Position numbers and translations under genes: made by a program | In this document: one piece after another, positions 48,445 through 64,000 of the stretch | How positions within the stretch are numbered: the first letter of the stretch is position 1 | How the letters are laid out: each line of letters begins with the position of its first letter | Origin: Nibribacter ruber | GTDB lineage: Bacteria > Bacteroidota > Bacteroidia > Cytophagales > Hymenobacteraceae | Assembly: GCF_009913235.1 (NCBI RefSeq) | Contig: NZ_CP047897.1 | Location: forward strand, 2,355,001 to 2,419,000 | Length of the DNA: 64,000 nt | Direction of reading: 5' to 3' | Notes under the pieces: generated by a model | Seen by the model: only the letters and a program-made list of their open reading frames with translations | Told to the model about the DNA's origin: nothing | The model's database searches: none

Positions 48445-48445
48445 A

Positions 48446-48656
48446 TTTGGAGATGTGAAGATTTGGGAGATGTGAAAATTTGGAAATGAGCGGATGATCT
48501 ATATTGGTACTTCCTACTTTCTTGCGCTATAGCTTTCCACCTTCATATTCCTAATCCCTGATTCTGATTATTTCCTAATCTTCTACTCCCAAAACCACCC
48601 CCATTTTCACATCTTCAAATCTGCACATCTCCAAATTTTCACATCTTCACATTCAA
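48446..48656. repeat. Inverted pair of GATGTGAA-rich repeats
   Basis: Left block 48446-48486 (AAATTTGGAGATGTGAAGAT... units) and right block 48603-48656 are inverted copies of the same 10- to 16-nt phrase, each repeated two to three times. They frame about 115 bp of unique AT-rich DNA between the phosphoesterase and acr3. Confidence 0.7.
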
Positions 48657-48661
48657 AAACC

Positions 48662-49720
48662 ATGTCTCCTCGTCTTTCCTTTTTAGACCGCCATCTTACC
48701 CTTTGGATTTTTCTGGCCATGGCCGTGGGGGTGGGAATTGGATATTTCTTTCCTTCGGCACCGGGCTTGTTGAACCACTTCCAGAGCGGAAGCACCAATT
48801 GGCTCATTGCAGCAGGGCTTATTTTAATGATGTATCCGCCGCTGGCCAAGGTGCGGTATGAGCAGTTGGGACGGGTGTTCAGAGACGTGAAGATTTTACT
48901 GCTGTCTTTGGTGCAGAACTGGCTCTTGGGGCCTTTGCTCATGTTCTTGCTGGCCATTGCGCTGCTACCAGACAAGCCCGAGTTCATGGTAGGTTTGATT
49001 CTGATTGGCCTGGCCCGCTGCATTGCCATGGTGCTGGTCTGGAATGACCTGGCCAAAGGCGATCCAGATTACGTGGCCGGGCTGGTGGCGTTCAACAGCA
49101 TTTTCCAGATCCTGTTTTACAGTGCCTACGCTTACTTGTTTATCACGGTGCTGCCGCCGCTTTTCGGGTTGGAGGGAAGTCTGGTGAACATTAGCATAGG
49201 TGAGGTGGCGCAGAGCGTCTTAGTGTACCTGGGCATACCCTTTGCCGCCGGCGCTTTGACCCGGTTCATTCTATTGCCACTCAAAGGCAAAGAATGGTAT
49301 GAGCAGAAGTTCATTCCGGCCATAAGTCCCCTTACGCTGGTTTCATTGCTGTTTACCATTGTGGTCATGTTCAGCCTGAAGGGCGATTTGATGGTGCACC
49401 TTCCTCTGGATGTGCTGCGGGTGGCCATTCCTTTGTTCATCTACTTTATTATCATGTTTTTTCTGGCCTTCTGGATGGGTCGCAAGGCCGGTGCCAACTA
49501 TGAGAAGACCGTGTCTCTGGCTTTTACGGCTGCCAGCAACAACTTTGAGCTGGGCATTGCCGTGGCCATTGCCGTTTTTGGCATTGAGTCTGGCGTGGCC
49601 TTCGCTACGGTCATTGGCCCGCTGGTAGAGGTGCCTGTACTCATAAGCCTGGTCAACGTAGCACTGCGCCGGAAAAACGAATTCGCGCCGCAAGCCCAGG
49701 AAACTTCTGACCCGGTTTAA
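48662..49720 (+). CDS. acr3: ACR3 family arsenite efflux transporter
   Basis: 352 residues with ten likely membrane helices. The ACR3 signature includes the essential Cys in [19 protein letters not shown] (~115-133), with [16 protein letters not shown] after it, and the second half [21 protein letters not shown] (~282-302) with the conserved Glu. Exports As(III) using the proton gradient. It closes the cluster arsR-arsI-phosphoesterase-acr3. No arsenate reductase (arsC) is present nearby. Confidence 0.92.
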
Positions 49721-49733
49721 TAAGCCCTGCCCT

Positions 49734-49771
49734 TGTTTTTAGGCTGTTTTCTGGAAAACAGGCCAAAAACG
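49734..49771. repeat. R38 palindromic repeat, copy 26
   Basis: 38 nt, centre CTGG; first base T. It lies 14 nt after the acr3 stop, before the terminator at 49797; convergent context. Confidence 0.92.
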
Positions 49772-49796
49772 GTTGGCAACAGACGTGGTATTCAAG

Positions 49797-49832
49797 CAAA
49801 GAGCGGGCACCTTTTCAGGCGTCCGCTCTTTG
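49797..49832 (+). terminator. Terminator after acr3
   Basis: CAAAGAGCGG(GC)ACC...GG(CG)TCCGCTCTTTG, about 12 bp of stem. No gene was recognised in the remaining 49833-50015. Confidence 0.78.
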
Positions 49833-50015
49833 TAATACAATTTGGTTGTCATGGGGGAAGAAAGCGGCTAGGCTGCTTTTCACTGGTCCGTCAATATGTA
49901 CACGAGTTACTTAAAAAAAAGGGAAATGGGCGGCTTGTCCTTTCAACATCACAATCTCCACAACACCGCGCCATTTCCTACTGTCTGGGCAAGTGAACAG
50001 GCCAGCGCCTATTCC

Positions 50016-50408
50016 TTACGCCTTATGTTTCTTTTCCTGCGCTTTTTCAGCTTTTAAGAGGGCCAGCATCTGTTTGGCCGGCACATAAGCCTCGCGCTTG
50101 CGCTTGATGAACGCGCGCTTTTTCACAAACTTCAGGTAGCCTTTGTACCCAATGTACAGGCCCGTTGGAATAAGAATGCACGCCAGCCACACAGAAATCT
50201 CAGACTTGAAGAACTGGTGCAGCGAGAACCCGGCAATGATCAGGGACAGGGCCGTGCGCAGGTACGCCAGGAAGGTGCGCTCGTTGGCGAAGGAAGTCCG
50301 CTCAATGGCTAGAGCATCTTTGATCTCTCCATTTGCCTTCTCCTTTATCTTGAGGTCCCTTCTTACCTCATCCATCATCTCTGGGCTCATGTAAGCGTCA
50401 TATTCCAT
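50016..50408 (-). CDS. DUF202 (YidH-type) membrane protein
   Basis: 130 residues. The family motif ALAIERTSFANERTFLAYLRTALSLIIAG spans ~34-62 and leads into the first helix. A second helix is VWLACILIPTGLYIGYKGYL (~73-92). The tail (KKRAFIKRKREAYVPAKQMLALLKAEKAQEKKHKA) is strongly basic and cytoplasmic. Function of DUF202 is not established. Single gene, R38 copy 26 downstream. Confidence 0.85.
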   Translation of the reverse strand: MEYDAYMSPEMMDEVRRDLKIKEKANGEIKDALAIERTSFANERTFLAYLRTALSLIIAGFSLHQFFKSEISVWLACILIPTGLYIGYKGYLKFVKKRAFIKRKREAYVPAKQMLALLKAEKAQEKKHKA

Positions 50409-50575
50409 AATACCTTTGTATACGCTTGATTTTTTGCTTAGATACAGATACTCATGGAATTACATGGTATTTTTAATATACTTTTGCTATTATTTTTCTG
50501 ACCCCGTAGTAATATTGTAATTTGGGCCGTATGGCAAAGAAAATACGGTAGCAGAAAGTACGTAAACCACTCACT

Positions 50576-51214
50576 ATGAAAGCTGTTTTTTACCTGTTGG
50601 CGCTGCTTTTGGCCGCTGTCTCCTTAAGCCCGGCCACGGCGCTGGCGCAGGATTCCTCCACGCCGCAAGACACGGTGCTCACCCGCCAGAACATCAAAGA
50701 CAACACCATCTTCTGGAACCAGAACCGCCTGGTGCGCCACAATAAAGGGGAACTGGAGCCTTTAGATACCCCAGCCAAGTACCCCAACGGCACCACCGTC
50801 TCGCCAGAAGGAAAGGTACGCCTGCCCAACGGCAGAACCATCACCTTGCAGCTTAAGCAGGCTGTGAACCCGCAGGGCAAGATTGTGCTGGCCGCAGATG
50901 ACCTGTTCACCTACACGGCCATACAGGAGCAGGAACGCCAGGTGGCCGGCGACACCGAAACCAGGATTGTGGTCATCAACGGCCAAATCTCGTCCATCAA
51001 ACAATCTGGCAAAGTCACAGCGTCTAATATTGGTTTGCAAAAGCAGGTAGAGCTCACCCAGCAGCTGGTGTCTTTGCTGGAGCAGCGCTCCCAACTACTG
51101 GAGGCCGCCATGGCTCCCGCAGACAAGGAGAAGGCCGCCAGCCAGACCAGATACTTAACCAATCGCATTGCCGCCGTAGAGAGGGACCTCAAGCAAAACG
51201 CCGGTAATCAATAA
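50576..51214 (+). CDS. Secreted protein with DUF6799-like repeats
   Basis: 212 residues; signal peptide 1-24 (ending TALAQ). The mature part has NGTTVSPEGKVRLPNGRTITLQLKQAVNPQGKIVL at ~80-115, the pattern I recall for DUF6799 domains. From ~150 it forms a long charged helix likely to be a coiled coil (LQKQVELTQQLVSLLEQRSQLLEAA). Function unknown; periplasmic. A TACTTTTG sequence at 50479-50486 is a possible -7 box. Confidence 0.72.
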   Translation: MKAVFYLLALLLAAVSLSPATALAQDSSTPQDTVLTRQNIKDNTIFWNQNRLVRHNKGELEPLDTPAKYPNGTTVSPEGKVRLPNGRTITLQLKQAVNPQGKIVLAADDLFTYTAIQEQERQVAGDTETRIVVINGQISSIKQSGKVTASNIGLQKQVELTQQLVSLLEQRSQLLEAAMAPADKEKAASQTRYLTNRIAAVERDLKQNAGNQ

Positions 51215-51310
51215 TTTCAAGGCTGCTTTCTCTCAGGGAGTTGCCGCAACGGCCGGTTTGTTTTTAGGGCGTGCGGTTTAAACCTTTTGCATGAATTTCC
51301 ATCTTACTTC

Positions 51311-51348
51311 TGTTTTTCGGCTATTTTTGAGGAATTAGCCGAAAAACA
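51311..51348. repeat. R38 palindromic repeat, copy 27
   Basis: 38 nt, arms TCGGCTA/TAGCCGA, fully compensated changes; ends are T and A instead of C and G, and remain paired. Next to a T-run of nine. Centre is TGAG-type. Confidence 0.9.
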
Positions 51349-51379
51349 GATTTTTTTTTGAATAAAAGAAAAGCACCCG

Positions 51380-51410
51380 TTGCATAATCATAGGAGACTG
51401 TTTATATTTG
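51380..51410 (+). promoter_or_regulatory. Promoter of the ECF sigma factor gene (51491)
   Basis: TTG (51380-51382), 20 nt, TATATTTG (51403-51410), a perfect Bacteroidota housekeeping promoter, with a leader of about 75 nt. Confidence 0.8.
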
Positions 51411-51490
51411 ATATATAAGTTATTCCTTTCAATTCACGCTAACCTCACAATATGGCCTAGACCTCTACGTTACCTTACATGTAGATTTAG

Positions 51491-52090
51491 ATGAATACAG
51501 TACAGCTCAACGATTCGGCGCTAGTAACGTCGTATATCGGTGGTAACGAGAGTGCGTTCGAGGAATTGGTGAACCGTCATAAAAGCAAGGTGTTCACCAC
51601 CATTCTGCTTATTGTAAAAGATACCTATACAGCCGAAGACCTTTTGCAGGAAACGTTTGTAAAGGCCATTCACACCATGAAGAGTGGTCGTTACAATGAG
51701 GAAGGCAAATTTTCATCCTGGATCTGCCGTATCGCCCATAACATGGCCATTGACTATTTCCGGAAGGAGAAGCGGAGCCCTATGATCACCCTGGAAGACG
51801 GCAGCAACGTGTTTAACACATTGAGCTTCTCTGAGGAGTCTGTGGAGACGGTCCGCATCAAAGAGGAAACCCATGCCCGGTTAAGAGAGCTGATTCAGCT
51901 GTTGCCGCCGGCCCAGAAAGAGGTGCTCATCATGCGCCACTACGCTGACATGAGTTTTCAGGAGATTGCAGAGGCTACCGGGGTTAGCATTAACACGGCT
52001 TTGGGCAGAATGAGATACGCATTAATCAATTTGCGGAAAAAAATGTCCCTTGATAAAACAGCCTATGATCAAAACCTTTACTCAAAATGA
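51491..52090 (+). CDS. ECF-type RNA polymerase sigma factor
   Basis: 199 residues. Region 2: ESAFEELVNRHKSKVFTTILLIVKDTYTAEDLLQETFVKAIHTM (~15-60). Region 4: LPPAQKEVLIMRHYADMSFQEIAEATGVSINTALGRMRYALINLRK (~137-182), with a clear helix-turn-helix. It has a housekeeping promoter (51380) and therefore seems constitutively made. Its last 26 nt overlap the start of a 76-residue protein gene, which is the likely co-regulated partner; a classical membrane anti-sigma factor is not present. Confidence 0.92.
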   Translation: MNTVQLNDSALVTSYIGGNESAFEELVNRHKSKVFTTILLIVKDTYTAEDLLQETFVKAIHTMKSGRYNEEGKFSSWICRIAHNMAIDYFRKEKRSPMITLEDGSNVFNTLSFSEESVETVRIKEETHARLRELIQLLPPAQKEVLIMRHYADMSFQEIAEATGVSINTALGRMRYALINLRKKMSLDKTAYDQNLYSK

Positions 52091-52295
52091 TCTAGTACAG
52101 TATCTTTATAACGAGTTGCCCACGCGGCAGCGCCTTTTGCTGGAAGACGCCATGATGGCCGACCAGGACCTGGCCGAAGACTGTGCAGATTTGCTTCTGG
52201 CCCACGCACGCCTACAAGAAGCCTACGCCCAGCCGAGTGACCGGGTCACCAACGCCATCATGCAGTACTCCAAAAGCCTGAGTTTGCATCCTTAA
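52065..52295 (+). CDS. 76-residue helical protein overlapping the sigma factor gene
   Basis: Start ATG 52065 (MIKTFTQNDLVQYLYNELPTRQRLLLEDAMMADQDLAEDC), 26 nt inside the sigma gene end. All-helical, acidic, no membrane segment. The N-terminal part (DLVQYLYNEL...LLEDAMMADQDLAED) resembles the zinc-finger-less N-terminal helix unit of anti-sigma-type proteins found next to ECF genes, including residues 1-50 of the protein at 54695. It could be a soluble anti-sigma or a regulator of the sigma factor; not proven. Confidence 0.72.
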   Translation: MIKTFTQNDLVQYLYNELPTRQRLLLEDAMMADQDLAEDCADLLLAHARLQEAYAQPSDRVTNAIMQYSKSLSLHP

Positions 52296-52312
52296 CTGAA
52301 AAGCATTTTTAC

Positions 52313-52357
52313 CAGACAGGCCCCGTCTATGAAAGTAGACGGGGCCTGTCTGTTTTT
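52313..52357. terminator. Perfect 17-bp terminator with R38 half-copy as T-tract
   Basis: CAGACAGGCCCCGTCTA, loop TGAAAG, exact inverse, then TTTTTAG. The T-run belongs to a half R38 copy (52351-52373, CTGTTTTTAGTCTGTTCTGGTGA without a right arm). Convergent genes. Confidence 0.88.
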
Positions 52358-52919
52358 AGTCTGTTCTGGTGATGGATTTGCCGTTGGAATATAACAATTG
52401 AATAAGCCCGTACTCGCGGTTCCAAAACACGGTGGCAGAATCCTTTTTGTACCCACCACTTGTAGGATAAGCCGTGAAAGTATAGACGTTCTGGTAGGTC
52501 TGCCCATTGATGACCGTTGGAACAGGAGAGGCCACTTCTTCTTCAGGCGTTAAGTCCCTCCAGAAATTATTTACCATTAGTGAAAAGCCATAGCCGCTTG
52601 TTAGGCTACCGGCCTCCAGGCTCACATCTAGAGAAATACCTTGTCCTGAAGAATACCTTACCTCATATTGTTCCAAAAACTCTCGTCCACCCCAAAGACT
52701 CCAGTAGGTCACATCTACCATCTCTCTTCTATACACAAGCTGGGGCACAGTCTGTACCTGACCTAGCGTGTCTAAGAATTTTAAGGTTTGGCCCTGACTG
52801 TAGCTCACAAAGTCCAGTTCTTTCTCTGAGAAACGGTAGTATTTGTCTTTCTTGGTGCAGCCCGCCACACTTCCCAAGAATAGCATAGTCCCTAATAGCC
52901 TAGTAAAAATCTTCCTCAT
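52356..52919 (-). CDS. Hypothetical lipoprotein
   Basis: 187 residues; signal peptide with lipobox SVAGC (Cys21), so an envelope lipoprotein. The mature part is strand-rich with many aromatic residues (YYRFSEKELDFVSYSQGQTLKFLD, EQYEVRYSSGQGISLDVSL, TYQNVYTFTAYPTSGG, YGLIQLLYSNGKS), like small periplasmic barrel or lipocalin-type Bacteroidota lipoproteins. No family recognised. Its last codons and stop (...SITRTD) are formed by the half R38 copy, so the gene end may have been reshaped by the repeat. Confidence 0.8.
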   Translation of the reverse strand: MRKIFTRLLGTMLFLGSVAGCTKKDKYYRFSEKELDFVSYSQGQTLKFLDTLGQVQTVPQLVYRREMVDVTYWSLWGGREFLEQYEVRYSSGQGISLDVSLEAGSLTSGYGFSLMVNNFWRDLTPEEEVASPVPTVINGQTYQNVYTFTAYPTSGGYKKDSATVFWNREYGLIQLLYSNGKSITRTD

Positions 52920-53074
52920 TATATATGCCTGCTATGTTCACCTTTCCCCAAGGTAGTTATTCTTGACGCCAGCCCGTAAAAAAAATGTAAAAAGCAGGCT
53001 GGGATTGCGTTCTACTCTAAGTGGCAACAGAGCTTCTTTTTTTATAATTTGCAGGATTAGAACCTCTTTCACCT

Positions 53075-53752
53075 ATGCGCAAGCCAGAACGGTACCGTCA
53101 CCTTATCTCTTATTTTACAGAGCACTTTCCAGAGCCTGAGACCGAGTTGGACTACCGCACGCCCTATGAGCTGCTCATTGCCGTGGTCTTGAGCGCCCAG
53201 TGCACAGACAAGCGCGTGAACCTGGTGACGCCTGCCCTATTTGAGGCCTACCCTACCGCAGAGGTGTTGGCAACTGCCAGTTCTGAGGATATTTTCCCCT
53301 ATATCAAGAGCATCTCCTACCCTAACAACAAGGCCAAGCATCTGGCGGGGCTGGGCAAGATGCTGGTAGAGCGTTTTGGCGGCGAGGTGCCCAGTACCAT
53401 AGAAGAACTGCAGCAACTGCCCGGCGTAGGCCGCAAAACCGCCAATGTGATTTCATCGGTTATTTTCAACATGCCGGCCATGGCCGTAGACACGCACGTG
53501 TTCAGGGTCTCCAAGCGTCTGGGCTTGGTCAGTGCCACGGCTAAAACCCCGCTGGAGGTAGAAAAGGAGCTCTTACAATACATCCCGCTGGACCTGGTGC
53601 CCAAGGCCCACCACTGGCTCATTTTGCACGGCCGCTACATCTGCCTGGCCCGTACTCCCCAGTGCGAGCGGTGCCCCCTCACCCACTTCTGTGCCTACTT
53701 CCAGAAAAACTGGCCCAACAAGCCAGACGATCCCCAGAACAAGCTCGGTTAA
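53075..53752 (+). CDS. nth: Endonuclease III
   Basis: 225 residues. Base-excision repair glycosylase/AP lyase for oxidised pyrimidines. Helix-hairpin-helix LPGVGRKTANVIS (~115-127) with the catalytic Lys, catalytic Asp in AVDTHVFRVSKRLGL (~136-150), and the 4Fe-4S cluster C-x6-C-x2-C-x5-C at CLARTPQCERCPLTHFC (~190-206). All key residues are present. Monocistronic; R38 copy 28 follows after 6 nt. Confidence 0.97.
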   Translation: MRKPERYRHLISYFTEHFPEPETELDYRTPYELLIAVVLSAQCTDKRVNLVTPALFEAYPTAEVLATASSEDIFPYIKSISYPNNKAKHLAGLGKMLVERFGGEVPSTIEELQQLPGVGRKTANVISSVIFNMPAMAVDTHVFRVSKRLGLVSATAKTPLEVEKELLQYIPLDLVPKAHHWLILHGRYICLARTPQCERCPLTHFCAYFQKNWPNKPDDPQNKLG

Positions 53753-53758
53753 CCGCCG

Positions 53759-53796
53759 CGTTTTTGGCCTGTTTTCTGGAAAACTGCCCAAAAACG
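53759..53796. repeat. R38 palindromic repeat, copy 28
   Basis: 38 nt, centre CTGG, right arm ACTGCCC mismatched once. 6 nt after the nth stop; no other copy occurs until 59558. Confidence 0.9.
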
Positions 53797-54100
53797 ACAC
53801 TTTCATGAAAAAGGTTATCCACTATAACCAGTCTCCAAGGCAGCCAAACACCTTAAGTCCTTCAGCACTACGTACTAAGAAGTTAAACACACAAGAGTAG
53901 AATTACAGAAAATAAGTATTTATTACCAGTAAATCGAGTTTAATACGTAGTGGCGCTACTTTAATATTTCGTAAACTAGCAGTTGGAAACTCTGTCTCTT
54001 TTTCTTCTCCTCTAACTGCCTGCCTTGTCCTGTGCAAAGCCTGAGTAGACGCTAGAAACACAGGCACCGCATATATATACCATATTTAATACAATAGGCT
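53797..54100. other. Intergenic stretch without recognised genes
   Basis: AT-rich non-coding DNA before the second sigma factor. It holds one TTATCCACT (53813-53821), 8 of 9 bases of a DnaA box, but a single box is not evidence of an origin. No two-element housekeeping promoter is visible, which would fit a sigma gene that controls its own promoter. Confidence 0.5.
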
Positions 54101-54667
54101 TTGATACGAGGGGAAGATAAAGTTCTGAGCAGGCTGAGGGCCGGCGATGAGACTTGTTTACGGGAGCTGTACCAGCAACACCGAGATGATTTTGTGCACT
54201 GGGCCTGCCGGCAGTACCAGTTGGAGCAAGAAGAGGCCAAGGATATCTTTCAGGTGACCATGGTGGCCTTCTATGAAAACGCCGCCTCTGGCAAATTAAC
54301 CCATCTTTCCTGTGAGTTGAAGACCTACCTTTTTGCGGTAGCCAAAAACCACATCCATAATTTTTTAAGAAATAAGGCGTCTGCCACTAACTTTGTTGAT
54401 GTTTCTGACATTAAGATAGAAGACAACACGCTAGAAGAAGAAGAGGCACAGGCTCACCAGAAGACACTGGTACACCAAGCCATTGCCCAATTACCGCCAG
54501 ACAACAGGCGGGTGCTGGAACTCTACTACTTCCATGACTATGACATGGCGTCTATTGCCCGCGAGATGGGGTACAAGAACGAGAATGTGGCCAAGGTAAA
54601 GAAATTGCAATGCCTGCGTAAGTTGTCCGTTATCTTAAGAGAAAAAGTTGAACAGTTAAACATTTAG
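54101..54667 (+). CDS. ECF-type RNA polymerase sigma factor next to CHAT locus
   Basis: 188 residues from TTG 54101 (no ATG in frame). Region 2: DETCLRELYQQHRDDFVHWACRQYQLEQEEAKDIFQVTMVAFYENA. Region 4: LPPDNRRVLELYYFHDYDMASIAREMGYKNENVAKVKKLQCLRKL, whose recognition helix (ENVAKVKKLQCLRKL) matches the group in which sigma genes sit beside TM-TPR and CHAT genes. It is followed at 27 nt by the membrane TPR gene, so these form one transcript. Likely directs expression of a small regulon, perhaps the locus itself. Confidence 0.9.
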   Translation: MIRGEDKVLSRLRAGDETCLRELYQQHRDDFVHWACRQYQLEQEEAKDIFQVTMVAFYENAASGKLTHLSCELKTYLFAVAKNHIHNFLRNKASATNFVDVSDIKIEDNTLEEEEAQAHQKTLVHQAIAQLPPDNRRVLELYYFHDYDMASIAREMGYKNENVAKVKKLQCLRKLSVILREKVEQLNI

Positions 54668-54694
54668 GCGCTGTGTTAGGCGTCTGCTCAGGCA

Positions 54695-55408
54695 TTGTTA
54701 GAAGAAGAAGCAACCCAACAGGCTTTTGAAGCATACCGCAGACAAGAAATGTCTGCCCCAGAGAGACAGGCGTTTGAAACAGCCCTGACCCGCGACCCTG
54801 CCTTGCGCCTGCTGTATGAGCAGTACTTGACTTTGGTAGAGGGCATAAAGGAAAGCAAGCGCCAGGAGCTTAACTACAAGCTGGAGGCCTGGGATGCCCA
54901 GATGCCCCCAGTGGCACAGAGAAAGATGCCCCTCTGGAAGATTGCTGCCAGCATTGTGCTGCTAATCACACTGTCTGTCACGCTCTTCCTGTACAAGACA
55001 GCCCACACGCAAGAACTCACCGCCCACACGTATGTTGAAGAACCGGGCCTGCCCGTATTAATGGGCGCTTCACAGGCTTGGGCACCGGCTATGAACGCCT
55101 ACAGGTCCAACCAGTTTGAGAAGGCTTTGCATGAGATTCCCGCGCAAGCCGGCGAAGACACCACCGCGTTCTTCAAGGGTATTCTCTACCTAAAACTCCA
55201 ACAACCCGCCGCTGCGTTAGCCAAGTTCACTGACATGGCCCTTACTACTTCTGCCTATTCAGAAAAAGCGGCCTATTACCGTGCCTACGCGCTTTGGCAG
55301 TCAGACCAAAAGAAGGAGGCTAAAGCGGTATTCCAGGAGATTGCTCAGCAGCCAGGGCACGTGTTCCAGAAAGAGGCAAGGCAGGTGTTAGCGTCTGGTT
55401 CTCTGTAG
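54695..55408 (+). CDS. Single-pass membrane protein with anti-sigma-like N-terminus and TPR-like C-terminus
   Basis: 237 residues from TTG 54695; a stop codon lies six codons upstream, so the start is well bounded. The cytoplasmic part ~1-75 is acidic and helical (QQAFEAYRRQEMSAPERQAFETALTRDPALR), resembling anti-sigma or peptidase-inhibitor-type segments. A membrane helix follows at ~87-107 (IAASIVLLITLSVTLFLYKTA). The periplasmic part 130-237 contains TPR-like pairs (AMNAYRSNQFEKALHEIPA, AFFKGILYLKLQQPAAALAKFTDMA, AAYYRAYALWQSDQKKEAKAVFQEIA). It would hold the sigma factor and sense something across the membrane. Its end overlaps the CHAT gene end by 21 nt, convergently. Confidence 0.82.
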   Translation: MLEEEATQQAFEAYRRQEMSAPERQAFETALTRDPALRLLYEQYLTLVEGIKESKRQELNYKLEAWDAQMPPVAQRKMPLWKIAASIVLLITLSVTLFLYKTAHTQELTAHTYVEEPGLPVLMGASQAWAPAMNAYRSNQFEKALHEIPAQAGEDTTAFFKGILYLKLQQPAAALAKFTDMALTTSAYSEKAAYYRAYALWQSDQKKEAKAVFQEIAQQPGHVFQKEARQVLASGSL

Positions 55409-58234
55409 AAAGACCTGGCGTGCCCCAAACAAGAGCAACAACAGCAGATAAGCCGCCAGCGCGAGTTTCAGCCATTTACCTAGCTCAAAAGAAGTTTCAA
55501 ATGCTTGTTCCTGCCCATTGAGTACCAGCCCTGCCCAGTAGAATGGGTGGGCCTCTTCTGCGGTGCGCACTTGGGTGATATATCTGCGCTTGGCGTCTGA
55601 CAGCGCAATGGACTTGTCTTCGCCGGATAAAATACCTTCATAGAATCCTTTCAAGAGTGCTGCGGTGCTGCGGTCATCTACCTTCCAGAGAGTGGCTACG
55701 GTGCTTTGGGCACCAATGAACTTAAAACTCCAGCTCAGGCTGTGCACCTTGGCCCGGTTCCTATGCGCAGACACGCCCAGTTCGGTCTCGCAGGCGCTTA
55801 GAATTGCCAAAGCCGGACGCAGGTTCAATTGCAGCAACTCCTCCAAATACAAAGCCCCGTCTTCCCCGCCGCCTTTGGCCAACTGAAACTTTGACAATGC
55901 CGGATCTTCTGCGTTTGCCTCTGCGTGCGTGGCCAGGTGTAAAATAGAATATTTATGGGCGTGTTGCTTAAAAAAGGCCTCGGTGGCTCTGCTGTCTACC
56001 AAATAAGTGCCGGGGGTACGTTGTTGCAGAAAATCTAGCAAAGAAGCCGTGAACGGCAGCTGCAAGAAAGAAGCACCCTTACCTGACAGGGCATAGGGCG
56101 CCAGGGCGAGGATGGAAGGCCGTTGCGGCAGTTTGCTGAAGGCCCGTCCCTTCCGGAGCACGTACCAATATGCCGAAGAATGCCCGTAACTGATATCATA
56201 TTGCTGCAACAGATACGGATACTCCCTGAAATTGAAATGGCCCACGGGCTTGGTGAGCAAAGCGCCAAACGGAATCCGCCAGTACTCGCTGTCTGGCAGC
56301 ACAATCAGCTTTTTGATTTGCCCAGGCAGGTGACGTAGTATTGGGGCCGCTACTTTTGCATACACCTGGTAGGCAGATTGACGGTAAGGCTCATTCTGCC
56401 GCAGCGCCAACGCTTGGTGCAACGCCGGAATGGTCGTCAACAAAGTGCTATCCATGTCTGCCAACTTCAGGAAAGTCACCTTCTCTTTGGTAATGACAAA
56501 GGCGAAGAGCTTGTTCCTCTGCGGAGTGATTCCCCGGTCAAAATGTACCAGTTCCAGCAAAGCTTCTTCGCCTGAAAGCTCTTTTTGCAGTTGTTGCAGC
56601 GTGGGGATGTTTTGTCCTTTGGGTATGGTTAACATTGATGGCCCTTTGCCGCGTTGGACCTCTAACTGAGCCTTGGTATTCTGCCATTGGACTTCCACTC
56701 CTTTAAAAGTGGAGGCCTGCCCCAGCTCGGGGTACAGATCCAGCAGGGCTTTCTTCTCTTCCAGTTCTTTCCAGCGCTCCTCTAACTGCTGTGACGCAAT
56801 TTCAGAAGCTGACTTTCCTCCCTCCACCGGGCCATTCTGGTACTTTACTTCATTGTGGAGCAGGCTGTAGCTTTTAAACCGGTTGGTAATGTCCAGGGCT
56901 TGCTGCAGATAGCGCTCCTGGCCGGTAGTCTCATAAAGCAAATAACTGGAATTGATGCCCCAGCCATACCCTTCAGACGCTCCTTCATAGTCAATGTTGG
57001 CGGTGCTGCCGGCTAATGAGGTGGCCTCGCGCTTCGCTTCTTCCAGAAAGGAAATGTACTGCACCACGTGCTGATGGTAGGAGTTTAGATAGGCCGGGTT
57101 CTTATTCGCCTCATAGAGTTTAAGGAGAGACTTGATTTTCCCGGTCAGTAGCAAAAGGTATTCTCGTTGTGGAATGCCTCTGGGCACGATTGGTACCTGC
57201 AGCGCGTCTTTGATGTGCTCACGGGGCATAAGCCGGCGCATACCCTGCGTGTACAACTCTAGGCTGTTGTGCCAATCGTCTTTTAATTGCAACAGAATAG
57301 CCTTTGTCACCAGCGTAAGCGTAGCGCTGCCCGGGTGCACCTTGTTCTTCTCAAACAGAGCAATGGCCTTGTCATAGTTGGCATTTGCCGAGGCAAAATA
57401 GCTATCTGCTCCCTTCTGAAGCGCCGGTGCCAAATCATTCCGGAAGCCATACAGGTTGTTATACGAGTTGCCTATGTTGTGGTAGACCATGGCTGTGGAG
57501 GCCTTCTGGTTGCCCCTTCTGCTTTTCTCGGCTAAGAGGGCGCTGTCATAATAAGCCAGGGCGGCGTGCAGGTTGCTGGCATGGTGCTTTCCTTCTAACG
57601 TATAGCCCGCTTTCTGGTAAGCTTCCTCATGAATGGCATAGCCCAGAATATTATAATACACCAAGGCTTCTTTATGTTGCAGATGCTGGGGCTGGTGCCT
57701 TAGAATTTGTACGGCTTTGAGGGCATACGAGACCGCCAAACCAGCTTCCCCGATGAAGAAGCGACCCAGTTGGCGGTAGGTTCTGGCCGTTTGCATATGC
57801 GCCGGGCCGTACAATTCCAAGGCCAGTTGGTTGGCCTTCTTCCAGTAGGCTAAGGCAGGATCAGCTACCAGACGCTTGTAATACAACTCGCCCATGAGGT
57901 CATACCATTCCAGCATCTGGGGACTTTTCTCCCCAAACCGGCGCTGGATTACCTTCTGGGTGGCACTCAATAGTTCCTGGGCAGCTTCGGGCGCATTCAA
58001 TCTGATTAGGCAGGAAGCCAGGCCATGTTTCACGGCAATCCATTGGACAGAATCTGAGGGAGAAAGAAGGGTCATCGCCTTCTCATAGGTAAGATAGGCG
58101 GGCACGTATTGCATAGTGAGCCGGTCTTCCTCTGCGGCGGCCAACAGTTGCTGTACCTGGCTCACCGGACGCTTAACAGCCTGAGCATTTGTCTGATAGG
58201 CAGTCAGGGCAAGAAACAGTCCTACAAGAAACAT
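55388..58234 (-). CDS. TPR-CHAT domain protein (caspase-like protease candidate)
   Basis: 948 residues from ATG 58234, which gives a clean signal peptide (MFLVGLFLALTAYQTNAQ); an ATG 20 codons upstream (58294) is possible. Residues ~20-480 are TPR-like helical repeats. A charged linker follows, and the C-terminal CHAT domain spans ~600-920 with the catalytic dyad His in LHLATHAE (~766) and Cys in LSACETELG (~813). A membrane helix near the C-terminus (LALAAYLLLLLLFGARQVF) ends in Arg residues. CHAT proteases are caspase relatives; the partner or substrate is unknown. Faces the sigma-TM-TPR pair and overlaps its end by 21 nt. Confidence 0.9.
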   Translation of the reverse strand: MFLVGLFLALTAYQTNAQAVKRPVSQVQQLLAAAEEDRLTMQYVPAYLTYEKAMTLLSPSDSVQWIAVKHGLASCLIRLNAPEAAQELLSATQKVIQRRFGEKSPQMLEWYDLMGELYYKRLVADPALAYWKKANQLALELYGPAHMQTARTYRQLGRFFIGEAGLAVSYALKAVQILRHQPQHLQHKEALVYYNILGYAIHEEAYQKAGYTLEGKHHASNLHAALAYYDSALLAEKSRRGNQKASTAMVYHNIGNSYNNLYGFRNDLAPALQKGADSYFASANANYDKAIALFEKNKVHPGSATLTLVTKAILLQLKDDWHNSLELYTQGMRRLMPREHIKDALQVPIVPRGIPQREYLLLLTGKIKSLLKLYEANKNPAYLNSYHQHVVQYISFLEEAKREATSLAGSTANIDYEGASEGYGWGINSSYLLYETTGQERYLQQALDITNRFKSYSLLHNEVKYQNGPVEGGKSASEIASQQLEERWKELEEKKALLDLYPELGQASTFKGVEVQWQNTKAQLEVQRGKGPSMLTIPKGQNIPTLQQLQKELSGEEALLELVHFDRGITPQRNKLFAFVITKEKVTFLKLADMDSTLLTTIPALHQALALRQNEPYRQSAYQVYAKVAAPILRHLPGQIKKLIVLPDSEYWRIPFGALLTKPVGHFNFREYPYLLQQYDISYGHSSAYWYVLRKGRAFSKLPQRPSILALAPYALSGKGASFLQLPFTASLLDFLQQRTPGTYLVDSRATEAFFKQHAHKYSILHLATHAEANAEDPALSKFQLAKGGGEDGALYLEELLQLNLRPALAILSACETELGVSAHRNRAKVHSLSWSFKFIGAQSTVATLWKVDDRSTAALLKGFYEGILSGEDKSIALSDAKRRYITQVRTAEEAHPFYWAGLVLNGQEQAFETSFELGKWLKLALAAYLLLLLLFGARQVFLQRTRR

Positions 58235-58339
58235 AATCCGCTGGACGGGGAACACGCAAAAGGGGAAGGAGTGCCTTAAATGCAGTACATACATATGTCC
58301 TCTAAGCTAACTATTTTTCATCAGAACGCCAGTGGCTGG

Positions 58340-59542
58340 CTACCTTGCCCCGTGCACTGCCCTATTGAAAATGGCTTCCAGGTGAGGCACCATCTGGCCT
58401 CGGTCAAACTGGGCGGCGGCTACCTGCCCGGCGTTTTGGCTCATGGTTTGCAAAGTGGTCTTGTCAGAGAGGAGGCGTTCTAAGGAATGAGCTAATTGAG
58501 CACTGTCCCCAGACGGCACATACCAGCCGCACTGGTGCTGCTCCACCAGGTCTTTGGTCCAACCAGGATTGGTCACTACCACGGGCGTTCCGGCCGCCAA
58601 ACTGTCGAAGAACTTTCCGGGGGAGTTGGCCTGCAGCACCGGCAGATCTATAAACGAAACCACAGATACTGCTGCCAAAGCAAACAAGGCAAAAACCTGA
58701 TGGCGGGGCAAGGGTGGCAACAAAAGTATATTGGAAAGCTCTTGGGCCGCCTTTTGTAGCAGAGGCTCATCATAACCTTGCCCCGTGAACACAAACACTA
58801 TATCTGGGTGGTGCTGCAACCGTTTGGCTGTTTCTAACAGCAAGGGCATATCATTGGCGCGGCCATAAGTGCCCGCGTATAAAACCACCTGCTTTCCCTG
58901 CACGCCAATAGACTGCCTAAGCGCTTCCTGTGCTTGCGTAGACACATGGGCCAACTCTACCTCCGTGCCGTTCACCAGGGTAGTCACTTTGTCTGCCGGC
59001 ACGCCTTTGCCCAGCACATACTGCTCCATGCCCGGTGACAGCGTGATGATGTGACTAGCCGATTGGTACAAGTTATTTTCAAGCTCATACAGCGGACGTT
59101 GCAGCGGCTTAAACGGCAAGGCGCCCATCTCAATGGGAAAAGAAGGCCACAAATCCTGCACTTCAAATATCCAGGGCACCTTTTTGAAACTGGCTACTCT
59201 GGCAGCAGCCCAGGCGGTGGTCAAAGGCGTAGACACGCCCCAGATGACATCTGGCTTAACAAGTTTCAGACCTTGGGTGAAGGCATGCAGACCGAAGGAG
59301 GCAAAGGCTTGCAGCCTCCGCAGTTTTCCCATCTTGTTATGGTAAGGCACATGTACAGACACCAACTCCACTCCTTCAGGCACCCACGGAAACTGGTGCG
59401 TGAGGCGCTTGCTTTCCCAGGCATCTGAAGTGATCAAGGTAACCTGGTGCCGTTTTACCAACTCCTCCATAAACGTATAATGCCGGCACGTGGCAGGGCA
59501 GTCTGGATTATGATGGTACTGATGAAACAGGGCGATGTGCAT
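58340..59542 (-). CDS. Glycosyltransferase family 4 (WbuB-like)
   Basis: 400 residues with a two-Rossmann GT-B fold. N-terminal domain: HIALFHQYHHNPDCPATCRHYTFMEELVKRH, then VSTPLTTAWAAARVASFKKVPWIFEVQDLWPS, a stretch typical of WbuB/WcaI-type enzymes of O-antigen or capsule synthesis. C-terminal domain: VVLYAGTYGRANDMPLLLETAKRL and the sugar-nucleotide site VVSFIDLPVLQANSPGKFFDSLAAGTPVV, with the Glu of the common E-x7-E replaced by Gln and Lys as usual in this group. Single gene. Confidence 0.9.
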   Translation of the reverse strand: MHIALFHQYHHNPDCPATCRHYTFMEELVKRHQVTLITSDAWESKRLTHQFPWVPEGVELVSVHVPYHNKMGKLRRLQAFASFGLHAFTQGLKLVKPDVIWGVSTPLTTAWAAARVASFKKVPWIFEVQDLWPSFPIEMGALPFKPLQRPLYELENNLYQSASHIITLSPGMEQYVLGKGVPADKVTTLVNGTEVELAHVSTQAQEALRQSIGVQGKQVVLYAGTYGRANDMPLLLETAKRLQHHPDIVFVFTGQGYDEPLLQKAAQELSNILLLPPLPRHQVFALFALAAVSVVSFIDLPVLQANSPGKFFDSLAAGTPVVVTNPGWTKDLVEQHQCGWYVPSGDSAQLAHSLERLLSDKTTLQTMSQNAGQVAAAQFDRGQMVPHLEAIFNRAVHGAR

Positions 59543-59557
59543 GCAGGAATGATAAAC

Positions 59558-59595
59558 CGTTTTTGGGCTGTTTTCTGGAAATCAGGCTAAAAACG
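59558..59595. repeat. R38 palindromic repeat, copy 29
   Basis: 38 nt, centre CTGG, right arm TCAGGCT with changes; 15 nt upstream of the glycosyltransferase start. Confidence 0.88.
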
Positions 59596-59938
59596 AAGGA
59601 AATAAGTAATGAGTTGGTTAATGGAAACTGTCTCGCTATGATACGATTACCTTTCAAAAACTAACAACCATGCGCCAAATGACTTCTTCGTTTAAGGTAC
59701 AACAAGGCACATAAAAGCAAGCGGATGCCTGCCACTTGTAGACCAATCTGCCGCCAAGTGTTTTATCAGAAAGCTATAATACCCCATGCTGCCTTTTTTC
59801 TTGAACCTAGACTATGAGTGATAACACCAACCATGACAAGGACCCTAGGTATGGCAGCGTGTATAGGCTAGAATTTGGTAATTCTCGGCTGTAAGCCGGA
59901 AATTGATATTAGCAAAGATCCAGACTTGAGGTAGATAT
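59596..59938. other. Intergenic stretch without recognised genes
   Basis: About 340 bp of AT-rich DNA with no convincing coding region, terminator or tRNA. It lies between R38 copies 29 and 30. Whether it holds a non-coding RNA cannot be told by eye. Confidence 0.5.
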
Positions 59939-59976
59939 CGTTTTTGGGCTGTTTTGGTGAAAACAGCCCAAAAACG
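59939..59976. repeat. R38 palindromic repeat, copy 30
   Basis: 38 nt, centre GGTG, arms GGGCTG/CAGCCC perfectly paired. Just downstream of the gldB stop, separated by the phrase GTCTTGTGTCTC. Confidence 0.93.
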
Positions 59977-60022
59977 GAGTATCAAACTCGTCTTGAATCT
60001 AATGTCTTGTGTCTCGAAAAAT

Positions 60023-61015
60023 CTATTTCTTCTGAGGCTTGTACTTGGACTGGTCCAGGATTTTGCGTGCGTCTTTCTCATTCATAAGCTGCGGCAGGGT
60101 CACGTTTGGATTCTTTTCCATGTATTGGCGCACAATCTGCCAACCCACCCAGGCACCCACGCGGCCCGGACAGCGGGCACTAATCTCTGGGATGTTGGGC
60201 CGCTCGCCAATGTACTTTCTTATGGTGAACTGGCTGGTCTCATACAATAGGCCCTTCTCAATAAAGTGGGCCCAGATTTTCCCTTCGTTGTGCTGCACAT
60301 CGGCCACGGCTTGGCCGGTGTACCCAATAATGAGCGAGTCTGGCGTGCAGGGCACCATGCGTTCCACAAAATAAAAAGACTTGCCGTAGTCAATCATCTC
60401 TTCCAGCATGGTGCTGTTCACAAAGTCTGTCTTATTAAACTTGTTGGACACCAGCAGCATGACAGACGGCGCCAGGTTCTCCTTTTCATAGCGCTCCAGA
60501 ATGTACTGCGGCGCCTGCGGACGGAACGCGGCCTTTCTGCCAATGAAGAAGTCCAGCCCCAGCACAATCAGGCTGTCAGACACCAGCAAGTCGCGGCTCA
60601 GGCCAGAGACGAAGGATTTTACCGGCGGCACGTAAAAATTGGGGTAGTAATGTTTCACGTGCTTGAAGCCGTTCTCCAGCTCCTTCTCCACTTCGGTCAA
60701 ATCCCCGAAGGCGGCGTCTGACTGCTTGACCAAGCGGGCCAGGCTGGTGTCTGTGGCCATGCGCAGAAGGTTCTGGGCCAGCAGTTGGTCATTGGGATAG
60801 CTTTTGCGCTGCAGGAAACGGTCTGCAAACAAGGGCTCCTGCTGCAGAAACTGCTGCATCTGGGGCAGGCCGTTGATGGCGTAGAAGCGCTTCTCCAGTT
60901 GCTCCACTTCTATCTTTACCGGTACATTGGCAATCTCCTCTGGTATCTGGCAGCCTTTCTTTTGGCAACCAAACCACAGCAGTGCAGTAAAAAGCAACAG
61001 CAGACGTCCTTTCAT
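60023..61015 (-). CDS. gldB: Gliding motility lipoprotein GldB
   Basis: 330 residues, normal for GldB. Lipobox LWFGC (Cys17). Conserved stretches seen: DLTEVEKELENGFKHVKHYYPNF, LIVLGLDFFIGRKAAFRPQAPQYIL, and WAHFIEKGLLYETS...KYIGERPNIPEIS, ending in AWVGWQIVRQYMEKNPNVTLPQLM. GldB is one of the proteins required for gliding/type IX secretion-linked motility in Flavobacterium; in Cytophagales it also occurs in non-gliding species. The other gld genes are not in this window. A -7-like box (61039-61046) lies about 25 nt upstream. Confidence 0.92.
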   Translation of the reverse strand: MKGRLLLLFTALLWFGCQKKGCQIPEEIANVPVKIEVEQLEKRFYAINGLPQMQQFLQQEPLFADRFLQRKSYPNDQLLAQNLLRMATDTSLARLVKQSDAAFGDLTEVEKELENGFKHVKHYYPNFYVPPVKSFVSGLSRDLLVSDSLIVLGLDFFIGRKAAFRPQAPQYILERYEKENLAPSVMLLVSNKFNKTDFVNSTMLEEMIDYGKSFYFVERMVPCTPDSLIIGYTGQAVADVQHNEGKIWAHFIEKGLLYETSQFTIRKYIGERPNIPEISARCPGRVGAWVGWQIVRQYMEKNPNVTLPQLMNEKDARKILDQSKYKPQKK

Positions 61016-61028
61016 GGGTTTCCTTCTT

Positions 61029-61046
61029 TATCTTTGGTCAAATTTA
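61029..61046. promoter_or_regulatory. Divergent -7 boxes between gldB and the barrel gene
   Basis: Plus-strand TATCTTTG (61029-61036) points to the barrel gene and minus-strand TAAATTTG (61039-61046) to gldB. They are back to back, 2 nt apart. Neither has a TTG at standard distance, so each call rests on one element. Confidence 0.4.
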
Positions 61047-61080
61047 CTTAACATTCACCAATACCTTCTTATTCTTAAAC

Positions 61081-61782
61081 ATGAAGATGATTCGTTGTAT
61101 CACAGCCACCGCGTTTGCGCTGGCCTTGGTGTTCAGTTCACATAACGCAAGTGCCCAGGTAGAAATTGGCGTGAAGATCTCCCCTTCTCTGGCCTTTAGC
61201 CGAACCATTGCCCAGGACAAGTATAAGTTTGACGGCGAAGGCGCAAAACCAGGCTTTGGGATTGGCGTGATAGCCGACTACTTCTTTGGCGCCAACTACG
61301 CCGTGTCTTCTGGCTTGATCTATAACATCAAAGGCGGCAACGTGGCCTATAACTACTCGTACCCAGACCCGGCTTCTGTGGGCGGCACCATCACCAAAAG
61401 CGGCAAGGACGAGCTGAGCCTGCAGTACCTGGAGATTCCAGTGGCCCTCAAGTTGTTCACCAATGAAATCACGCCAGAGACGCGGTTTTACTTTCAGGCG
61501 GGTACTTCTTTGAACACCATGCTCAACGCCAAGGTGAACGAGAAGAAAGTAGACCCAGACGGCGACAAGTACACCAAGCGCTTCAACACCTTTGAGATTG
61601 ACGTGCTCATTGGCATTGGGGCAGAAAGAAACCTGGGCCAGAGCACCAAGCTGTTTGGCGGCATCACCTACCACCGCGGCCTCACAGACGCAGATGACAG
61701 CTACTACTCAGACCTGTTTGGCGACGACAAGGTAGAGCTCAAGAACAATTCCTTCTCCCTGGATCTAGGCATTAAATTCTAA
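61081..61782 (+). CDS. Outer-membrane beta-barrel family protein
   Basis: 233 residues; signal peptide MKMIRCITATAFALALVFSSHNASAQ. Small-barrel pattern: VEIGVKISPSLAFSR, GFGIGVIADYFFGANYAVSSGLIYNIKG, LSLQYLEIPVALKLFT, RFYFQAGTSLNTMLNAK, EIDVLIGIGAERNLG, and final strand FSLDLGIKF ending in Phe. Related in fold to the four paralogues at 25-28 kb, but clearly more distant. Role unknown. Single gene. Confidence 0.85.
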   Translation: MKMIRCITATAFALALVFSSHNASAQVEIGVKISPSLAFSRTIAQDKYKFDGEGAKPGFGIGVIADYFFGANYAVSSGLIYNIKGGNVAYNYSYPDPASVGGTITKSGKDELSLQYLEIPVALKLFTNEITPETRFYFQAGTSLNTMLNAKVNEKKVDPDGDKYTKRFNTFEIDVLIGIGAERNLGQSTKLFGGITYHRGLTDADDSYYSDLFGDDKVELKNNSFSLDLGIKF

Positions 61783-61784
61783 GT

Positions 61785-61822
61785 CGTTTTTGGCCTGTTT
61801 TCCAGAAAACAGGCCAAAAACG
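61785..61822. repeat. R38 palindromic repeat, copy 31
   Basis: 38 nt and identical to the consensus (CGTTTTTGGCCTGTTTT, CCAG, AAAACAGGCCAAAAACG). 2 nt after the barrel gene stop; convergent context. A useful reference copy. Confidence 0.95.
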
Positions 61823-61834
61823 GAAGTCCTTGAA

Positions 61835-61877
61835 AAGAAGAAGCCCCTGTCTCTGTTGAGGCAGGGGCTTCTTCTTG
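61835..61877. terminator. Bidirectional terminator
   Basis: AAGAAGAAGCCCCTG, loop about 13 nt, CAGGGGCTTCTTCTT. It ends RNase E/G (-) and the barrel gene (+). Confidence 0.88.
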
Positions 61878-61898
61878 TATTATAAGGCGCAGCAGATG

Positions 61899-63503
61899 TT
61901 ATTCTTCTACCACGTCTCTGTCTTGTAAACTATTCACTTCTGAGTAAGCCGATTTCAGCTCAATCTCATCGCCGTGCTCGTCCATCACTTTGAAATCTGT
62001 GAGGGCCATGGCCGTATCCTTCATCACGGTCACCCACTTCATGTGCTTCAGGAACCATCTCCGTTGCTTGGAGAGTAATCCCTTGGTGTAGTAGGCGTGC
62101 AAGAACGGATGCACGTACAGCGTAATGTTTTTCTGATTCTGGCGGGTTAACAGATCTTCAATGGTCTGATCAATGTCATCCGTTACCAGAATGCTGGCCG
62201 AGATCTTGCCGCTTCCCTGACAGGTGGGGCAGACTTCACCGGTTACAATGTTTTGCTCAGGCCGTACGCGCTGGCGGGTAATCTGCATGAGTCCGAATTT
62301 GGAGATGGGCAGCACCGTGTACTTAGACCGGTCTTTTTTCATCTCTTCCTTTACTACATCCTGCACTTTTTGCCGGTTCTCGGCAGACTTCATATCAATA
62401 AAGTCTACTACAATGATTCCGCCCAGGTCCCGGAGGCGCAGCTGACGCGCTACCTCTTTGGCCGCAGTAAGATTCACATTCAGAGCGGTGGCCTCCTGGT
62501 CTGTCTCAGAGTTGGATTTGTTGCCGCTGTTCACATCTACCACGTGCAGGGCCTCTGTGTGTTCAATCACAAGGTAGCCGCCGCCTGGTATGCTCACTGT
62601 CTTCCCAAACAGGGACTTCAGCTGCTTTTCAATGTTAAAGTGTTCAAAGGTTTTCACCTTGCCCGTGTAATGCTTCAGAATCTTCAGCTTATCCGGGGCG
62701 ATGGTCTCAATGTAAGTTTTGATCTCGTCGTATAACTTGGCATCATCTACCACGATGTTGTCAAAACTTTCATTCAATATGTCTCTCAACATGGAGGAGG
62801 AGCGTCCTAGCTCCCCAATCACTTTGTCGCGCTCTTTGGCGGTCTTCAAAGTGTTAATCCCTTCTTCCCAGGTGGCCACCATGCCACGCAGGTCCTTGTC
62901 TAGTTCTGCTACTTCCCGGCCTTCGGCCACGGTCCTGATAATGACGCCAAAGTTCTCCGGCTTAATGGAGGTGATGAGGCGTTTCAGGCGGGTGCGTTCC
63001 TCTTTGCTGACAATCTTCTTAGACACGCTTACCGTGTTTGAGAAGGGTACCAGCACCAGGTAACGGCCGGCCAGGGAAATCTCACAAGAAAGACGCGGGC
63101 CTTTGGTGGAGATAGGCTCTTTGACAATCTGTACCAAGATCTGCTGTCCTTTTTTGAGGACGTCTGCCATCTTGCCCAGCTTTTCTATCTCGGGCTCAAA
63201 CTTGACTTGGTTTAGCTTGGCAGAGGCGTTTCTCTGGTTCTGCACCACTTTCACAAACTTGTTGAGAGTCTTAATGTTCTCTCCCAAATCATGGTAGTGC
63301 AGAAACGCGTCTTTGGAGTACCCAATGTCTACGAACGCTGCGTTCAGACCGGGCATTACCTTTTTGACGGTTCCCAGGAAAATATCTCCCACTGAGTAGT
63401 TGGTGTCATTTCTATCAAAATGATACTCTACCAGTCGCTTATCCTGCAGAAGGGCTATTCGTTCTCCATCTTGAGTAGAATTAATAATTAATTCGTTACT
63501 CAA
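61899..63503 (-). CDS. rng: Ribonuclease E/G
   Basis: 534 residues from TTG 63503 (MSNELIINSTQDGERIAL), the family's usual N-terminus; no suitable ATG. S1 RNA-binding domain ~35-125 (SVGDIFLGTVKKVMPGLNAAFVDIGYSKDAFL). The RNase H-like catalytic part carries HVVDVNSGNKS (~320) and GGIIVVDFIDM (~364), the two magnesium-binding Asp. Zinc-link CPTCQGSG lies near 428. Endonuclease of mRNA decay and rRNA processing. It lacks the long E. coli RNase E scaffold. Confidence 0.95.
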   Translation of the reverse strand: MSNELIINSTQDGERIALLQDKRLVEYHFDRNDTNYSVGDIFLGTVKKVMPGLNAAFVDIGYSKDAFLHYHDLGENIKTLNKFVKVVQNQRNASAKLNQVKFEPEIEKLGKMADVLKKGQQILVQIVKEPISTKGPRLSCEISLAGRYLVLVPFSNTVSVSKKIVSKEERTRLKRLITSIKPENFGVIIRTVAEGREVAELDKDLRGMVATWEEGINTLKTAKERDKVIGELGRSSSMLRDILNESFDNIVVDDAKLYDEIKTYIETIAPDKLKILKHYTGKVKTFEHFNIEKQLKSLFGKTVSIPGGGYLVIEHTEALHVVDVNSGNKSNSETDQEATALNVNLTAAKEVARQLRLRDLGGIIVVDFIDMKSAENRQKVQDVVKEEMKKDRSKYTVLPISKFGLMQITRQRVRPEQNIVTGEVCPTCQGSGKISASILVTDDIDQTIEDLLTRQNQKNITLYVHPFLHAYYTKGLLSKQRRWFLKHMKWVTVMKDTAMALTDFKVMDEHGDEIELKSAYSEVNSLQDRDVVEE

Positions 63504-63594
63504 TGTGTTTGATGCTTAGATGAAAGAATATACCAAAAGCCCATCATTACCAAATACTTGGCAATGTGGGCTTTTAAGATCAAAGGACTATGCC

Positions 63595-63684
63595 TTATTT
63601 CTTCTTATGTCTGTTTTTGCGCAGACGCTTCTTTCTCTTGTGGGTAGCAATCTTATGTCTTTTTCTTTTTTTACCGCAAGGCAT
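63595..63684 (-). CDS. 29-residue basic protein, COX24/AURKAIP1 (mS38)-like
   Basis: MPCGKKRKRHKIATHKRKKR followed by LRKNRHKKK: 29 residues, over half Lys/Arg/His. This is the highly conserved Bacteroidota family annotated as AURKAIP1/COX24-domain protein, related to the C-terminus of mitochondrial ribosomal protein mS38, so a small-subunit ribosomal protein is likely. Located between RNase E/G and the TPR gene, all leftward. The ATG (63684) and stop are unambiguous. Confidence 0.85.
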   Translation of the reverse strand: MPCGKKRKRHKIATHKRKKRLRKNRHKKK

Positions 63685-63727
63685 AGTCTTGATCTTTTTA
63701 TAAGTGAAAAATATTTTAACTCTTGTG

Positions 63728-64000
63728 TTACTGGGCGTTGTTCATCTTCTGCAGATAGCTGTCTACAGAAGCCAACACCTCTGGGTCTTTGCTTAACTCC
63801 TTTACTCTGGCAAACGCCTTCTGGGCTTCTCCCTTCTGCTTGGTCTCTGCCAGCGACACGCCCAGGTAGAAATTGCCGTCTACGTGGCTAGGGTTCACCA
63901 TCACCAGCTCCCTGAAACGCTCCACCGCCTTGTCATATTGATTAGACTGCATGGAAAGTACGCCCAGGTTAAAGAGCGCCTTTTCGTTTTTAGGGTCTGT
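63728..64000 (-). CDS. TPR protein, 5' end beyond the window
   Basis: C-terminal 90 residues, in frame to the window edge (first visible residues TDPKNEKALFNLGVL; the gene starts outside). At least two TPR units: KALFNLGVLSMQSNQYDKAVERFRELV and NFYLGVSLAETKQKGEAQKAFARV. Ends DSYLQKMNNAQ. A TPR gene next to RNase E/G is common in this phylum. Function unknown. Confidence 0.85.
   Translation of the reverse strand, partial: TDPKNEKALFNLGVLSMQSNQYDKAVERFRELVMVNPSHVDGNFYLGVSLAETKQKGEAQKAFARVKELSKDPEVLASVDSYLQKMNNAQ

Follow-up and report, generated by a model that had tools for sequence, protein, structure and literature searches.

Gene content of the locus

The 64,000-nucleotide (nt) stretch of the Nibribacter ruber genome studied here (NZ_CP047897.1, positions 2,355,001 to 2,419,000), called the window and used for all coordinates, carries three adjacent genes. 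They encode an extracytoplasmic function (ECF) sigma factor, a single-pass transmembrane (TM) protein with a TPR region and a TPR-CHAT protein. When coordinates were re-read, the open reading frames (ORFs), their strands, the 27-nt gap between the sigma and TM genes (54668–54694) and the 21-nt overlap of the convergent TM and CHAT genes (55388–55408) all agreed with an earlier note written from the sequence of the window. The CHAT gene is the only one in the 4.35-Mb genome. The features are as follows.

53753–58339, no strand: variable slot between nth (endonuclease III) and a glycosyltransferase gene, from congener comparison; the trio is its entire cargo
54101–54667, plus: ECF sigma factor, 188 amino acids (aa), TTG start, from Pfam and NCBI models
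54695–55408, plus: putative single-pass anti-sigma protein with cytosolic N-terminal domain, TM helix and periplasmic TPR, from hydropathy, family matches and a TPR structure match
54695–54919, plus: anti-sigma-like domain without zinc ligands, about residues 1–75, from alignment with L155 and profile matches
54935–54991, plus: predicted TM helix of the anti-sigma protein, about residues 80–98, hydropathy 2.1 at residue 81
55043–55069, plus: juxtamembrane motif PGLPVLM/GA, residues 117–125, with Met123-Gly124 as candidate cleavage site, from [RM][GS] enrichment
55388–58294, minus: predicted exported TPR-CHAT cysteine-protease-like protein, 968 aa, with signal peptide, TPR, CHAT and C-terminal anchor
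55925–55927, minus: codon of catalytic His790, invariant in alignment A1 and aligned with the Csx29 His
55790–55792, minus: codon of catalytic Cys835, invariant in alignment A1 and aligned with the Csx29 Cys
55391–55490, minus: predicted C-terminal TM anchor and positively charged tail, LALAAYLLLLLLFGARQVFLQRTRR, hydropathy 2.27, tail net charge +4

The sigma factor matches Sigma70_r2 (6e-7) and Sigma70_r4_2 (4e-9) of Pfam and the NCBI model sigma70-ECF (2e-24), all above cut-off, and has homologues of 90% identity in the congener G007 and 43% identity in G016. The TTG start that had been proposed was borne out by G007, where the codon and the frame are kept and nucleotide conservation turns continuous exactly there. 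No sensible E. coli-type promoter site was found upstream of the gene. This agrees with the earlier statement that no housekeeping promoter is visible, but the check is a weak one since the consensus of Bacteroidota differs.

Taken alone, the TM protein matched no model above cut-off, the NCBI anti-sigma model giving an E-value of only 0.027. The anti-sigma-like N-terminus claimed for it became visible through its family: 19 of 39 homologues match the NCBI anti-sigma model NF052375 (E ≤ 0.01, best 5.5e-9), 7 match LIMLP_03685 and a few match zf-HC2 or RseA_N. By these profile matches, the TM protein family is an anti-sigma family. In the relative at locus L155, the zinc anti-sigma motif HxxxCxxC aligns where the window protein reads ETALTRDPAL. 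The hydrophobic stretch is present in all close homologues and the TPR region resembles the TPR structure of YbgF (TMt 0.76). The spacing between sigma and TM genes is operonic across loci (−7 to +38 nt, three outliers aside). In genus g5, the sigma factor and the TPR-containing TM anti-sigma form one continuous ORF (L067 8256–9695, L070 7491–8861, L073 7773–9116 and L074 8040–9458), and three of these four genomes have no CHAT match. The window sigma factor and anti-sigma were also modelled as a single chain by translating as Gln both TAG stops that lie in frame between them. The parts fold well (predicted local distance difference test, pLDDT, 88.8), with a predicted template modelling score (pTM) of 0.38 that makes their placement unreliable. 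The best structural matches were ECF sigma chains, many of them in sigma/anti-sigma complexes, and the periplasmic TPR of YbgF.

The third protein matches Pfam CHAT (E 3.6e-48) and TPR_12. The intact His/Cys dyad reported for it was confirmed as His790 and Cys835, which do not vary across the ten members of alignment A1; a dead dyad in homologues was looked for and was seen neither there nor in any complete CHAT aligned, all of which have both motifs. The start of the protein is uncertain, a signal peptide fitting better from Met21 (about 58234). Topology was evaluated with a simple hydropathy scan of CHATs with complete ends. A hydrophobic N-terminus was found in 44 of 50 sigma-linked CHATs, and a C-terminal hydrophobic helix in 36 of these 50 versus 15 of 31 unlinked ones (Fisher P 0.04). 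The tail after this helix is net positive in every anchored sigma-linked CHAT. According to the positive-inside rule, the helix and its positive tail would place the CHAT domain on the periplasmic face of the membrane, so that it likely shares a compartment with the TPR of the anti-sigma protein.

Recurrence of the sigma-TM-CHAT association

CHAT relatives were found in 25 of 59 related genomes when the window CHAT protein was used as query. An ECF sigma gene followed by a single-pass membrane protein gene lay near the CHAT gene in 10 of 20 neighbourhoods, mostly convergent to it. GTDB genomes were scanned independently with a CHAT alignment, which gave 80 loci picked by CHAT similarity alone. 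In 53 of these the sequence extends 4.5 kb or more to either side, and 28 of the 53 carry a sigma gene no more than 4.5 kb from CHAT, while about 5% would be expected from the ECF density of seven related genomes (0.0053 per kb). The binomial P of 1e-23 is not corrected for relatedness, and the loci are not truly independent: about ten are from flavobacteria. Several Bacteroidota families are represented among the linked loci, as are two outgroup cases, L102 (Balneolaceae) and L155 (Thermodesulfovibrionia). In the 149 genomes examined from the class, strong full-length TM homologues and strong CHATs go together (15 of 17 versus 15 of 132, Fisher 1e-10), a test biased towards association by a TM profile mostly built on CHAT-linked members. 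A lack of co-occurrence in other genomes, which the earlier note would have counted against its reading, was looked for and did not turn up: sigma/TM and CHAT genes are found together there.

Two genomes of one family, G059 and G141, each contain at least 12–14 CHAT genes, with as many as 19 anti-sigma-like TM homologues, so that paralogues of this module are greatly expanded there. The 7 loci of G059 showed co-divergence of sigma and CHAT paralogues (r 0.51, P 0.017) and the 4 loci of G141 gave no signal, numbers too small to carry weight. In flavobacteria, the companion genes beside CHAT encode exported PKD and DUF7849 proteins and a retropepsin-like protein. A 145-aa protein is encoded directly after CHAT in this group (L137 9918–10355, L109 9927–10364, L157 10152–10589 and L093 10465–10902); in L137 it matches families of retropepsin-like aspartyl proteases and would be a second protease in the CHAT operon.

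In the genus of the window, CHAT and TM homologues are restricted to G000 and G007 (2 of 16 genomes), as are close sigma homologues. The flanking nth and glycosyltransferase genes were found in all 16 congeners. The slot between them holds almost nothing in G009 (locus L166, where 58 bp separate the two ORFs) and is filled by different genes in nearly every congener, within an otherwise conserved neighbourhood (loci L163–L176). Since the trio is found together in two genomes and the slot is nearly empty or otherwise filled elsewhere, the three genes are kept or lost as a unit. Together, these results make it very probable that the three genes form a joint regulatory unit.

Relation to known systems and proposed mechanism

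The CHAT structure model (pLDDT 70.8, pTM 0.59) has Csx29 of Craspase as its best structural match (E 5e-16), then separase, and also matches the transmembrane anti-sigma factor DdvA. Sequence profiles gave Csx29 (2.5e-10) and DdvA (4e-10), with both catalytic residues aligned. Csx29 cleaves Csx30, the inhibitor of an ECF sigma factor (PMC10028731). The cut falls between Csx30 residues 427 and 429; deletion of Met427 abolishes it, and no tested residue is essential. DdvA serves as anti-sigma to the ECF factor DdvS; a 2015 paper described the signal it responds to as unknown (PMC4374960). The CHAT domain of DdvA (residues 836–977 of 991) keeps the His and the Cys. Two known systems therefore link a CHAT domain with sigma inhibition, as a part of DdvA and as a separate protease in Csx29.

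As in type III-E Craspase (Csx29/Csx30/CASP-sigma), a TPR-CHAT cysteine protease with the same catalytic His and Cys and, in Csx29, the nearest fold in the PDB, is co-encoded in the window with an ECF sigma factor and its putative inhibitor. Unlike cytosolic Csx29, however, the window CHAT protein is predicted to be exported and membrane-anchored, the inhibitor is a TM protein instead of Csx30, and the NCBIfam Csx29 model scores 28.6 bits against a cut-off of 300. RAMP/Cas7-11 genes (PF03787) gave no match in G000, G007, G016, G035 and G040, and no CRISPR-like array was found in window positions 44000–64000. The trio looks like a non-CRISPR cousin of the Craspase-type CRISPR system. DdvS-DdvA of Myxococcus xanthus (PDB 8ROT, 8RW5) likewise has an ECF sigma gene beside that of its cognate transmembrane anti-sigma and retains the dyad, but there CHAT lies inside the anti-sigma polypeptide, whereas the window and linked loci have separate genes and the window CHAT carries its own signal peptide and anchor. 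We rate the trio as a split, membrane-anchored relative of this CHAT-anti-sigma theme.

CHAT proteins are also described near ECF54 sigma factors, for which proteolytic control is proposed and which, unlike the window sigma factor, have no anti-sigma (review, PMC8999054). No ECF54-type subtilase or carboxypeptidase was present among the eight locus genes scanned with Pfam. A literature search, which covered few subscription papers, found no described sigma-TPR-CHAT system of Bacteroidota. The window anti-sigma further resembles RseA (sigma-E, with DegS and RseP) and RsiW in its single-pass layout, with a sigma-binding cytosolic N-terminus and a periplasmic sensing part predicted. It differs from them in showing no zinc ligands and in having a TPR as periplasmic part, and its site-1 protease would be a caspase-like CHAT and not DegS or PrsW.

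We propose an envelope-sensing sigma/anti-sigma switch controlled by the membrane-anchored CHAT protease, probably through cutting of the anti-sigma, and give this proposal an even chance of being right. Through its N-terminal domain, the single-pass TPR protein would keep the ECF sigma factor inactive at the inner membrane. The exported CHAT protein, with its C-terminal helix as inner-membrane anchor, would face the TPR and juxtamembrane linker of the anti-sigma in the periplasm. The protease would be activated by an envelope signal that one or the other TPR domain reads, and as site-1 protease it would cut the linker just outside the membrane, with Met123-Gly124 as candidate site. A site-2 protease would complete cleavage and free the sigma factor to act on its putative regulon; family M50, to which site-2 proteases belong, is present in the genome. 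DegS and RseP act on RseA in this two-step way. The envelope switch suggested in the earlier note fits the likely topology, the anti-sigma assignment, the Csx29-like fold and the CHAT-bearing DdvA; its cutting step is one that we consider equally apt to hold or to fail.

The candidate site comes from a motif spotted after the fact: [RM][GS] occurs within 35 aa after the TM helix in 39 of 57 CHAT-linked TM homologues, compared with 11.8 expected from shuffled segments. In five CHAT-free representatives it is absent at the matching place after PGLP, which is weak evidence as all come from one lineage. The motif was rejected as a mark of CHAT linkage, since it also occurs in 10 of 16 unlinked TM proteins from genomes that contain CHAT.

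That last count weighs against the proposed switch, as do several other observations. The CHAT-linked TM proteins of L043, L044 and L048 have no TPR. A sigma gene is missing near CHAT in 25 of the 53 loci, and sigma-TM pairs occur in genomes without CHAT, so that neither part strictly needs the other. The structural arguments have their own limits: the predicted topology stems from a simple hydropathy scan, the CHAT model is of moderate quality at its pLDDT, and the untrustworthy placement of domains in the sigma/anti-sigma model led us to leave it aside as evidence for binding.

The strongest rival keeps the sigma/anti-sigma switch but lets the CHAT protein act by binding, act as a sensor or cut another envelope protein; it would be a partner of the sigma factor or be encoded by one of its target genes, and not the releasing protease. 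This is a real possibility, although we think it rather less probable than a cut of the anti-sigma. CHAT is part of the anti-sigma itself in DdvA and may thus sense instead of cutting, and the CHAT gene of flavobacteria belongs to a divergently oriented series of genes for exported PKD/DUF7849 proteins that could be the sigma regulon. A pure scaffold, however, would not need the dyad, which is invariant and also kept in DdvA, and the convergent gene order in the window speaks against CHAT being simply co-transcribed as a sigma target. The direction of control is not fixed by any finding, and proteolysis has been described as keeping some ECF systems inactive (PMC8999054). CHAT could then block the switch, by degrading an activator of the sigma factor or by keeping the anti-sigma intact, and its loss would turn the regulon on. 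We regard this as unlikely, the sigma factor being cytosolic and the CHAT domain predicted periplasmic, and the Csx29/Csx30 precedent running the opposite way.

The patchy presence of the trio in one variable slot within the genus, and the role of CHAT proteases in defence elsewhere, would suit a phage-defence module of the CHAT/caspase kind. Such a module is improbable here, and the defence part of the stress/defence alternative given in the earlier note found no support: PADLOC matched none of the three proteins, the genome has no RAMP gene and the slot cargo of other congeners was not recognised as defence. The CHAT topology is moreover that of an exported protein and the companion genes encode exported repeat proteins; the exported PKD-domain companions in flavobacteria would point to surface homeostasis over phage defence. 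That an unrelated TPR-CHAT gene merely neighbours a sigma/anti-sigma pair is very hard to credit. The convergent orientation does imply separate transcripts, and CHAT often occurs without sigma, but the association is far above ECF density in several families, and in the genus the three genes are either all there or all missing.

Extending the proposed switch beyond the window, we tentatively suggest that a periplasmic, anchored caspase/separase-like CHAT may act as site-1 protease in a widespread and undescribed class of Bacteroidota sigma/anti-sigma systems, which would have both split (window) and fused (DdvA) forms, and that the Craspase sigma circuit could derive from such a kind. If true, caspase/separase-type CHAT proteases would have an ordinary envelope-signalling role, apart from CRISPR and cell death, in a large bacterial phylum, and the Csx29-Csx30-sigma circuit would gain a plausible wider background. 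Split systems, with protease and anti-sigma open to separate mutation, would also offer a way to test what signal CHAT-bearing anti-sigmas like DdvA respond to.

Neighbouring genes and repeats

Another ECF sigma gene, which is conserved, is found upstream of nth (window 51491–52090). In congeners, the ECF sigma gene at this place is followed by that of an 81-aa protein, which may act as a small anti-sigma of its own.

Every few kb there is a copy of a dispersed palindrome about 38 nt long, with core CTGTTTTCnnGAAAACAG; one, for instance, lies right after the stop codon of nth. Its positions in the window are 44011–44050, 45797, 47580, 49734, 51311, 53759, 59558, 59939 and 61785. Copies with the exact pattern number 56 in the genome of the window, 25 in G007, 28 in G006 and none in G009, and a backward-read control gave zero. 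The copies of G006 have altered outer arms on both sides (GTTTTGGG...CCCAAAAC). The palindrome is terminator-like or resembles repetitive extragenic palindromic (REP) elements.

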